NCBI GenBank assembly: GCA_003220435.1
Contig: QHSL01000088.1
Span: 1 to 46,985 of the forward strand
Length of the DNA stretch: 46,985 nucleotides
Source: Candidatus Rokuibacteriota bacterium
GTDB taxonomy: Bacteria > Methylomirabilota > Methylomirabilia > Rokubacteriales > CSP1-6
Reading direction: 5' to 3'
The translations under genes and the position numbers were made by a program. Within the stretch, counting starts at the first letter, position 1. Each line of letters starts with the position of its first letter. Under the pieces are notes generated by a model. It saw only the letters and a program-made list of their open reading frames with translations. It did no database searches and was not told where the DNA came from. Positions 1,460 to 31,125 of this stretch are shown in pieces.

Positions 1460-2137
1460 GTGACCCGCTTCACGATCCTTCTAGGCGCATTTTCAGCGGC
1501 TGTGCTGGCCACGTCTCCGGCTGGCGGCGAGATGTATCGTCTGTCCACCAATGACGGGACCGTGCATTTCACCAACGCGCCCACCGATCCTCGCTATCAG
1601 CGCATGGGCATCGGGGTCACGGGCACCTCGGCGGGTTGGCTGCGGCTACCGCAAAAGGACACCCTCCAATACGCCGCTGAGATCCAGGACGCCGCCGCGC
1701 GATGGGGTGTGCCCGAGCGGCTGGTGCAGTCGGTCATTCGGGTCGAGTCCCAGTTCAACCCCCGCGCGGTCTCCGTGAAGGGCGCGCGGGGCTTGATGCA
1801 GCTGATGCCAGAGACGGCTTCCCAGCTCGGCGTTAACAACAGCTTCGACCCGCGGCAGAACATCGACGGCGGAGTTCGCCACCTCCGGGGGCTGATCGAC
1901 CGCTTCGGCAATGACCTGCCCCTGGCTCTCGCCGCATACAATGCGGGCGAGAAGGCCGTGCTCAACTACCGCGGGATTCCGCCGTTCCCGGAGACGCGCG
2001 ACTATGTTTCGCGCGTCCTGTATCTCTACGACGGAAGCAACGGCTCGACGACCGCCCCGGCCACTGCCGTCTATCGGACTATCGGCGAGGACGGCACGCT
2101 CATCTACACGAACATCCCGCCGCGCGGTAAGCGCTAG
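1460..2137 (+). CDS. Lytic transglycosylase (SLT domain) with DUF4124-like ends
   Basis: Periplasmic murein hydrolase of the soluble lytic transglycosylase type, cleaving the glycan backbone to a 1,6-anhydro product. Residues 1-23 look like a signal peptide. Residues 25-45 (MYRLSTNDGTVHFTNAP) match the DUF4124 style. The SLT domain spans about 70-185, with catalytic Glu96 in VIRVESQFNP, then GARGLMQLMPETA and LALAAYNAGE. The C-terminus (VYRTIGEDGTLIYTNIPP) repeats the N-terminal DUF4124-like motif, so the catalytic domain is flanked by two similar short modules. Start GTG chosen because the signal peptide begins there and a -10-like box lies 6 nt upstream. It is convergent with comM. Confidence 0.93.
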   Translation: MTRFTILLGAFSAAVLATSPAGGEMYRLSTNDGTVHFTNAPTDPRYQRMGIGVTGTSAGWLRLPQKDTLQYAAEIQDAAARWGVPERLVQSVIRVESQFNPRAVSVKGARGLMQLMPETASQLGVNNSFDPRQNIDGGVRHLRGLIDRFGNDLPLALAAYNAGEKAVLNYRGIPPFPETRDYVSRVLYLYDGSNGSTTAPATAVYRTIGEDGTLIYTNIPPRGKR

Positions 2138-28927: not shown

Positions 28928-29698
28928 CTAGCCGAGGAACCGGCGCTCGGGGTCGAGCGACCGGAGCGTCTCGAGCTCGTCGTCCGACGGCGGCTCGGTC
29001 ACTTCGACCTGCGGCGCTTGGAGCAGGGGAAAGCCCGTGTTCTGCCTGATCGTGTCGGCGGCGACGCCCGGATGCGTCGCCTCGATCCGCATGCGCTTCG
29101 ACTCGGGGTCGAACCCGAGGATGCCGAGCGTCGTGACGACGCGTGAAACGCCGCCGAAGAGCAGGCCGGCGGCGCGCCGCGAGCCGTTGCCGCGGAGCCA
29201 CGCCGGGCTCGTGACGAAGTCCACGCGCTCGACGAAGCGGCGCTTCTCGTGCGGGGTGACGATGATGACCTCGCGGCAGAGCGAGGCGATGTCGTTGGCG
29301 CCGCCCGTCCCCGGCAGCCGTACTTTCGGGTGCCAGTAGTCGGCGCCGAGCACGCTCGTGTTGATGTTGCCGTACTGATCGATCTGGGCGCCGCCCATGA
29401 AGCCCACGTCCACGAAACCGCGCTGGGCGAACAGGAAGGCGTCGGTGATCCCCGGCAGCATCGTCGCCCGATGGCCTGCGCGCATCTCGTTGGTCGACAC
29501 CGGCAGCCGGCCCGGCGCGATCTGGGGCCCGATGATGCCGCCCTCGATCACCATGGTGAGGCGCGGCGCGTGGCGCCGCTTGGCGAGCGCCGCGGCCAGC
29601 AGCGGCACGCCGACGCCCGCGAAGACCGCGGTGTCGTCACGGAGCTGGCGCGCGGCGATCACCGCCAGGAGCTCGGCGGCGTTGAACCGCTCGGTCAT
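28928..29698 (-). CDS. CoA-transferase beta subunit (GctB-like)
   Basis: Family I CoA-transferase subunit B, 256 residues. Features: TAVFAGVGVPLLAAALAKRRHAP, MVIEGGIIGPQ, FMGGAQIDQYGNINTSVLG and LPGTGGANDIASLCREVIIVTPHEKRRFVERVDFVTSPAWL, all typical of glutaconate/3-oxoacid CoA-transferase beta chains. It moves CoA between carboxylic acids together with the alpha subunit. The ATG begins MTERFNAAELL and overlaps the TGA of a repeat-encoded mini-ORF. The frame stays open about 52 codons into the repeat array, but no good start exists there. Confidence 0.92.
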   Translation of the reverse strand: MTERFNAAELLAVIAARQLRDDTAVFAGVGVPLLAAALAKRRHAPRLTMVIEGGIIGPQIAPGRLPVSTNEMRAGHRATMLPGITDAFLFAQRGFVDVGFMGGAQIDQYGNINTSVLGADYWHPKVRLPGTGGANDIASLCREVIIVTPHEKRRFVERVDFVTSPAWLRGNGSRRAAGLLFGGVSRVVTTLGILGFDPESKRMRIEATHPGVAADTIRQNTGFPLLQAPQVEVTEPPSDDELETLRSLDPERRFLG

Positions 29699-30157
29699 TG
29701 TATCGGCCGCGCGAGGCCGGTTCCAACCGCGGGTGGCTTGAGAGAGAGGGTGGGCTCGGTCATTGTATCGATCGTGCGAGGCCGGTTCCAACCGCGGGTG
29801 GCCTGAGAGAGAGTGGGCTCGGTCATTGTATCGATCGTGCGAGGCCGGTTCCAACCGCGGGTGGCCTGAGAGAGAGGGTGGGCTTGGTCATTGTATCGAT
29901 GGCGCGAGGCCGGTTCCGGCCGCGGATGGCCTGAGAGGGGCGCTGGGCTCGGTCATTGTATCGGCCGCAAGAGGCCGGTTCCAACCGCGGATGGCCTGAG
30001 AGAGAGGGTGGGCTTAGTCATTGTATCGGCCGCAAGAGGCCGGTTCCAACCGCGGGTGGCTTGAGAGAGACGCTGGGCTCGGTCATTGTATCGATCGCGC
30101 GAGGCCGGTTCCAACCGCGGGTGGCCTGAGAGAGAGGGTGGGCTTGGGGCTCGTCAT
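29694..30157. repeat. Seven tandem ~65-bp repeats between CoA-transferase subunit genes
   Basis: Units start at 29694, 29759, 29822, 29887, 29952, 30017 and 30082. Six are 65 bp before the next boundary and the second is 63 bp; the last merges into unique sequence at about 30147. Identity is high, with shared cores GTCATTGTATCG, GAGGCCGGTTCCAACCGCGG and TGGCCTGAGAGAGAGGGTG; unit 4 is the most diverged. The array exactly separates the stop of the alpha gene from the start of the beta gene. This is not a CRISPR: there are no spacers. A slipped-strand tandem expansion of the original gene junction explains its position. Confidence 0.97.
29695..30157 (-). other. Relay of overlapping mini-ORFs joining the two subunit genes
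   Basis: On the minus strand every repeat is an ORF beginning MTEPTLSL or MTKPTLSL and ending in SIQ or PIQ. ORFs: 30083-30157 (24 aa), 30018-30086, 29953-30021, 29888-29956 and 29823-29891 (22 aa each), then 29695-29826 (43 aa). The last spans the 63-bp unit, which removes one stop without breaking the chain. Each TGA overlaps the next ATG (ATGA). The first ATG overlaps the alpha-subunit stop and the last TGA overlaps the beta-subunit ATG. None has a Shine-Dalgarno sequence, so ribosomes would pass by termination-reinitiation. The reading is direct from sequence; translation is inferred. Confidence 0.75.
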
Positions 30158-31125
30158 CGCGTCAGCTCGCGGGCGCGCTTGGCCTGGAGGGCGAGGCGCT
30201 TGCCGCCGAAAAGGTCGAGGTAGTCCGTCCACGCCGGCGGTCCGTAGACGTAGCGCTCGAGGTACTCGCCGACCGCGCCGGGCCCACGCGCGTCGATGGC
30301 CGCCGTGTACTCGGCGAAGTGATCGTAGTCCGCCTCGTAGAGGCCGTAGCACTCGTGGGGGAACGAGCCGAACGGGACGTGGACGAGGGCGTCGACGGCG
30401 AACCCGGGGATCACCGTGCGATCGGGATAGCGGCGGGTCTCTTCCTCCGGAACGATTTCCTCCGTCGTGACCAGCACGGTCGTCGCGGCGCGCGCGATGT
30501 CGGCGTCCATGTGCGGGTAGCCGTCGATCTGGCAGTTGCCAAACACGTCGGCGCGGTGGACGTGGATCAGCGCGACGTCGGGGAACAGGGCCGGTACCGC
30601 CGCCAGCGTCTCGCCGGTGTAGGGATCCTGGATCGTCCTGAGACCGCCGATGCCGACGAGGTCCGAGCCGAGCATGGTCAGCGCCGGCAGGAACGGCACA
30701 CCCATCGCGCCGGCCCTGAACCTTAGCCCGAGCGCCAGGTGGCTCCACTCTTCGAGCGCGACCGCCCCCGTTTCGACGTAGTGGCGGAGGATCTTCGAGA
30801 CGCCCCACGGCAGGCCGATCGACATCCACGCGGTCACCACGCGCGACACCGCACCGGCCGCCATCAGCAACTCGCCTTCGGTGCAGGTGAGGTTGCGCGA
30901 GAGCGTGAGGGCGCGGCGCCGCTGACGGAGCACCTCGCGCACGAGGGCCAGCGGCGTGCGCGAGAAGAGGCAGCCGCCGGCGCTCAGATGGTCGCCGTCC
31001 TTCACGCGGCCGACGGCCTCCTCGAGGCTCGTCAGCTTCTCGCCCGCCGACCGCGGCTTGGCCTCGATACGGCGGCGGGCCGCGATGAAGTCGTACTCGG
31101 CGGCGTTCAGGTGAGGATCTCCCAT
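30154..31125 (-). CDS. CoA-transferase alpha subunit (GctA-like)
   Basis: Family I CoA-transferase subunit A, 323 residues: LEEAVGRVKDGDHLSAGGCLFSRTPLALVREVLRQ, LTLSRNLTCTEGELLMAAGAVSRVVTAWMS, and the acidic EEIVPEEETRRYPDRTVIPGFAVDALVHVPFGSFPHECYGLYEADYDHFAEY are family features. The ATG at 31125 lies 19 nt inside the PLP-enzyme gene; a longer open frame upstream is a shadow of that gene. Its TGA is the first link of the repeat relay. Acyl donor and acceptor are unknown. Confidence 0.92.
   Translation of the reverse strand: MGDPHLNAAEYDFIAARRRIEAKPRSAGEKLTSLEEAVGRVKDGDHLSAGGCLFSRTPLALVREVLRQRRRALTLSRNLTCTEGELLMAAGAVSRVVTAWMSIGLPWGVSKILRHYVETGAVALEEWSHLALGLRFRAGAMGVPFLPALTMLGSDLVGIGGLRTIQDPYTGETLAAVPALFPDVALIHVHRADVFGNCQIDGYPHMDADIARAATTVLVTTEEIVPEEETRRYPDRTVIPGFAVDALVHVPFGSFPHECYGLYEADYDHFAEYTAAIDARGPGAVGEYLERYVYGPPAWTDYLDLFGGKRLALQAKRARELTR

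Follow-up and report, generated by a model that had tools for sequence, protein, structure and literature searches.

A dispersed MIRU-like element forms a chain of overlapping mini-ORFs between two CoA-transferase subunit genes in Rokubacteria

The alpha/beta junction and its repeat array

We analysed a stretch of 46,985 nucleotides from a Candidatus Rokuibacteriota bacterium (contig QHSL01000088.1; hereafter, the window). Its minus strand carries a CoA-transferase alpha-type subunit gene (30154..31125), followed by a beta-type subunit gene encoding 256 aa (28928..29698). Both proteins matched Pfam PF01144 (CoA_trans; E 4e-27 and 6.5e-28, respectively), in agreement with the initial annotation of the pair as two CoA-transferase subunits. 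At the alpha gene start, the end of a cysteine synthase gene overlaps by ~19 bp, out of frame (31107-31125).

The alpha and beta genes are separated by seven tandem repeat units, all read on the minus strand. Unit 1 (30087..30157) is 71 bp long and holds a mini-ORF of 24 codons. It is followed by four units of 65 bp, each with a mini-ORF of 22 codons: unit 2 (30022..30086; ORF with stop, 30018-30086), unit 3 (29957..30021), unit 4 (29892..29956; ORF with stop, 29888-29956) and unit 5 (29827..29891). Unit 6 (29764..29826) has 63 bp and is fused in frame with unit 7 (29699..29763; 65 bp), forming one 43-codon ORF (29695-29826 including the stop), and unit 7 ends on the beta start ATG. Tandem Repeats Finder reported a single array at 29689-30144, with a period of 65, 7.0 copies and 88% matches.

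On the minus strand, the alpha stop TGA (30156-30154) lies inside the ATGA that opens the array, and the beta ATG (29698) overlaps the final TGA of the relay. The spacing from ATGA to ATGA between 30157 and 29698 is 71, 65, 65, 65, 65, 63 and 65 bp. Strict reading, begun at the ATG within the alpha stop overlap, gave ORFs of 24, 22, 22, 22, 22 and 43 codons and then the 256-codon beta gene; all six relay ORFs terminate on an ATGA whose ATG opens the next ORF, the last one opened being beta. The seven-unit array and the unbroken chain that had been proposed from alpha stop to beta start were confirmed, as was the in-frame fusion caused by the 63-bp unit, which still ends on the beta ATG. The proposed rule that units measure 65 or 63 bp holds for units 2 to 7 and fails for unit 1. 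Inspection of the window sequence by eye revealed no Shine-Dalgarno-like sequence just 5' of the relay ATGs.

An element dispersed through one Rokubacterial family

The array matched 18 places in its own genome, and these copies have in common a 65-70 bp consensus, about CGGAGCCGGCTCGCATCTCTCTCAGGCCACCCTCGGTCCAAGCCGGCCTCACGGCACCCGCTACAATGA, in which the core GCATCTCTCTCAGGCCACCCTCGGT is much more conserved than its flanks. A covariance model search recovered no fewer than 79 own-genome copies and 33-92 matches in each of eight other genomes of the genus. The element was also abundant in some related genera of the same family, reaching 119 copies per genome, and was essentially absent from the seven other families sampled in the same order and class. 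Relatives with a name are Candidatus Rokuibacteriota. The array unit is no local invention but a copy of an element that is dispersed within one Rokubacterial family.

The element ends in TACAATG at its 3' side and often supplies the start codon of a gene. With gene starts assigned by homology and GC3, in genomes that include metagenome assemblies, a same-strand gene start lay within 150 nt of 45 out of the 58 own-genome units that stood alone or came last in an array, and in 27 of those 45 it was exactly the ATG of the element. Most copies are oriented on the strand of the downstream gene, also where no upstream gene overlaps. The majority of own-genome copies do not lie at overlapping junctions; the relay is not their sole context.

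Some copies have a more complex surrounding. One (L012, ~1792-1861, minus strand) is placed between near-perfect inverted repeat arms of ~27 bp (TGAGATCGGGCGAACGGAGCCGGCAAG and its complement), and two loci (L018, 1908-2175; L078, 1300-1567) show a tandem period of ~99 bp made of the element, CTCGAGCCGGGCTCGC and further sequence. At L086, L092, L098 and L101, additional copies of a ACCCCGCTACAAC-like motif follow some elements on the 3' side, ~14 bp apart.

We considered several identities for the element and rejected them. A structured RNA or riboswitch was rejected on three grounds: no Rfam family reached its gathering score (four sub-threshold matches were at chance level), covariation analysis supported 0 pairs on 88 sequences (4 pairs on a set of 23, none with double-sided changes), and the fold was no better than that of shuffled sequences (z-scores 0.3-0.9). 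TACAAT was rejected as a promoter: it overlaps the start codon of genes with a clear N-terminus (FabD-like and NuoH-like, as inferred from their translations), and a transcript begun there would lack the start. As for a phage origin, the exact 18-base core pattern was absent from viral contigs. A functional peptide, for which a role had been suggested at first, was also dismissed, since junctions differ in the reading frame through the core, with all three in use, and the peptide therefore cannot be the conserved feature.

Empty junctions, filled junctions and the length of the inserts

The alpha/beta junction was readable in 28 genomes of the family. A plain RTGA overlap without the element was found in 16 of them, one unit in five (G006, G007, G002, G064 and G044), a decayed unit in G008, two units in G003, G005 and G045, three in G040 and seven in the window, while G055 had an unrelated insert of 34 codons that likewise forms a relay. 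Empty and filled sites were also present at the TldD/TldE and NuoL/NuoM junctions. The empty alpha/beta sites showed no precursor of the unit sequence.

These observations bear on the origin first suggested for the array, that is, tandem duplication of an ancestral ATGA junction with no dispersed element involved. The array units are more alike among themselves (88%) than to the long matches elsewhere (71-76%), and they have ATGACCGAGC in common with the beta start, which indicates that local multiplication did happen. But dozens of unrelated loci carry the unit sequence too and the empty sites hold nothing from which it could have been duplicated, which makes this origin very improbable. On the sequences compared, local duplication is refuted as the source of the unit and holds for the multiplication step; insertion of a member of the dispersed family into an empty RTGA overlap, with local multiplication later, explains the sites better than a duplicated junction would.

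The number of alpha/beta units among related genomes (0, 1, 2, 3 or 7) would suit a copy number that tunes the alpha:beta ratio or switches it in a phase-like manner. We regard such a role as improbable, given that the differences lie between species-level genomes and that the two proteins are subunits with an expected fixed stoichiometry.

We surveyed alpha/beta, TldD/TldE and NuoL/NuoM in ~30 genomes each. Direct overlaps numbered 49 and element relays 21; a further 9 relays, of 3 to 34 codons, were free of the element. A strict relay was found in 12 out of 12 inserts at alpha/beta, 8 out of 9 at TldD/TldE and 10 out of 12 at NuoL/NuoM. Thus the relatives, whose alpha/beta inserts (12 among the 28 readable Rokubacteria) all keep the chain unbroken, did not break it as often as they kept it, the outcome that had been named in advance as fatal to the relay. 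The exact stop/start chain was present in 30/33 inserts against 17.2 expected when a random indel of 1-2 nt was put in each, and 30/33 was reached in 0 of 200,000 simulations; as element copies are related by descent, the P values are indicative and overstate independence. The strict chain was broken in three of the 33 inserts, all with the element, and in one of these the stop immediately adjoins the next ATG. At NuoL/NuoM, five junctions scored as broken have gaps of just 0-3 nt.

Genome-wide, the relay was kept by 58 of 70 scorable junction elements (36.6 expected). After similar copies were collapsed, it was kept in 33/40, 23/23 and 14/15 (19.2, 13.9 and 8.8 expected, respectively). A looser relay test, accepting any route to a long ORF, proved too permissive because shifted starts passed it too, and it was replaced by the indel and length tests. 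A shuffled insert of the right length also often keeps the relay: frames stay open easily in GC-rich DNA, so length is the informative feature.

Element-free relays through micro-ORFs of 3-6 codons were seen at NuoL/NuoM or TldD/TldE of several genomes (L331, L336, L338, L329, L293 and L310). In other genera, a different repeat, GAGGAGCGCCACGGGTTCCCCGGGGCGCTCCGA ... GGGGGCCATCTCGGGGCCCCCC, occupies RTGA junctions at L140 (alpha/beta of G055) and L339 (NuoL/NuoM of G043), and the relays it forms are of 34 codons and of 35+46+33 codons.

Unit lengths are constrained. We examined 81 units that have a 5'-edge RTGA and a 3'-edge start; their length modulo 3 was 2 in 62, 0 in 14 and 1 in 5. Shuffling the pairing of 5' and 3' parts gave a mean of 27 units of the 2 mod 3 class and a maximum of 44, versus the 62 observed. 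The most frequent combinations of 5' and 3' length around the core were 22+43, 23+42 and 24+41, each of which sums to 65. At tandem joints with RTGA the spacing was 65 in 33/53, and at joints without RTGA it was 66 in 22/25, a contrast that is partly built in, as in some lineages the ATGA and the shorter unit result from one and the same 1-bp deletion at the joint.

A founder effect could produce part of this pattern: a mobile unit of fixed 65 bp, copied into many junctions, would relay as a mechanical result of its length, with no selection involved. Many relay cases are indeed single 65-bp units, and G012 and its allies hold many copies of one 22+43 subfamily. That this is the whole explanation is unlikely, because three subfamilies with different splits all arrive at 65, inserts of other lengths also relay (28/37 versus 17.6 expected), and the nine inserts that lack the element do so too through micro-ORFs of 3-34 codons.

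The same lengths weigh on a reading of the element as a start-codon-proximal regulatory or promoter/leader element, with independent initiation of beta and with open frames that simply follow from a GC-rich sequence. The orientation of the copies, which mostly share the strand of the downstream gene and often end at its start codon even without an overlapping upstream gene, speaks for it, and so does the far better conservation of the core GCATCTCTCTCAGGCCACCCTCGGT over the flanks. It leaves unexplained, however, the 2 mod 3 lengths and the exact overlap with the upstream stop; the element shows no conserved RNA fold and belongs to no Rfam family, and the relay ATGs have no Shine-Dalgarno-like sequence just 5' of them (by eye). 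We judge it unlikely.

Known systems and a possible mechanism

Mycobacterial interspersed repetitive units (MIRUs) occur as tandem copies whose number varies between strains, with overlapping stop/start ends on both sides. A 2025 review (PMC12548453), which cites Supply et al. 1997, presents these repeats as apparently mobile, inserting at start codons and bringing an ORF coupled at -4 nt. The Rokubacterial element is likewise short, dispersed and present in many copies (79 matches in its own genome and as many as 119 in a related one); it sits at start codons (27/58 own-genome units), contains an internal ORF with a -4 nt ATGA relay, appears inserted into existing stop/start overlaps (alpha/beta, TldD/TldE and NuoL/NuoM), and forms tandem copies in variable number at one locus (alpha/beta, among related genomes). 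It differs in its phylum, in its size of ~65 bp, in its many copies outside overlapping junctions and in a frame-length rule measured across lineages. The element can be called MIRU-like in every feature compared, a likeness by description that claims no homology and does not class it as a MIRU. Added here are the phylum, the frame-length rule across lineages, and element-free inserts at the same junctions that obey the rule. A literature search for papers on repeats in Rokubacteria turned up nothing relevant.

REP/BIME, ERIC and similar intergenic repeats are also short, dispersed and numerous in each genome. In contrast to them, the Rokubacterial element is mostly oriented toward the downstream gene, with its 3' end on the start codon, and has no supported stem-loop. 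A REP/RAYT system was rejected, as the Y1 transposase (RAYT; PF01797, Y1_Tnp) had 0 matches in the own genome and was positive in 5 control genomes. Short upstream ORFs (uORFs) deliver ribosomes to a coupled gene (PMC12548453), and the role of the ORF would be similar here, ribosome delivery rather than a peptide; the Rokubacterial ORF differs in being repeat-borne, in its place between two genes of an operon and in its predicted coupling at either end.

Termination-reinitiation takes place at ATGA gene overlaps (PMC6728339, PMC10666635), and close or overlapping gene pairs are enriched for heteromeric subunits (PMC10666635). The junctions studied here share the -4 nt geometry, and in many cases the two genes encode parts of a single complex (CoA-transferase alpha/beta, TldD/TldE, NuoL/NuoM); a stop/start overlap of 4 or 1 nt recurs at each step of the window chain and of 30/33 inserts. 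The Rokubacterial case differs in that an insert divides the overlap, which is restored in relay via one to several mini-ORFs. In E. coli and Haloferax experiments, coupling of the tested pairs was nearly lost at gaps of ~20 nt (PMC10666635); a 65-nt insert would presumably uncouple a pair unless the overlap is re-made at both ends, as it is in the relay.

Our main reading, to which we give a probability of roughly 80%, is that the array is a MIRU-like cassette of the dispersed element that preserves translational coupling, the coupling itself being what we infer from the stop/start geometry. The element would enter an RTGA overlap and leave RTGA at its 5' edge and ATG(A) at its 3' edge, with a mini-ORF of ~22 codons in between. 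A ribosome that finished alpha at the TGA would then resume at the ATG overlapping it and translate the mini-ORF, with termination and restart repeated at each TGA until beta, so that the inserted DNA would leave the two subunit genes coupled. Such use of the chain by ribosomes is predicted from sequence, and the element itself is probably mobile. The chain is probably maintained by selection for coupling or, as an alternative reason for the same constraint, by selection against ribosome-free mRNA, with ribosome cover of the message protecting it from Rho polarity. One consideration counts against the mechanism: a chain of six relays would steeply lower beta output if each restart were inefficient.

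A MIRU-like stop/start cassette is thus found far from mycobacteria. At relay junctions it is a warning to gene callers of missed or mis-started genes. Dozens of species offer these gene pairs, some with inserts of known length and some without, which amounts to a large natural experiment on translational coupling, and the strong length rule argues for selection maintaining coupling at these junctions, which is usually inferred just from gene spacing. More tentatively, a coupled stop/start junction in Rokubacteria may tolerate incoming DNA of whatever kind chiefly where that DNA makes a chain of overlapping mini-ORFs, the 65-nt (2 mod 3) form having perhaps been reached independently in at least three element subfamilies to satisfy this demand and the element-free inserts of 3-34 codons following the same rule. 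If so, relay would be a general principle by which operons stay coupled, and MIRUs would be one other instance of it.
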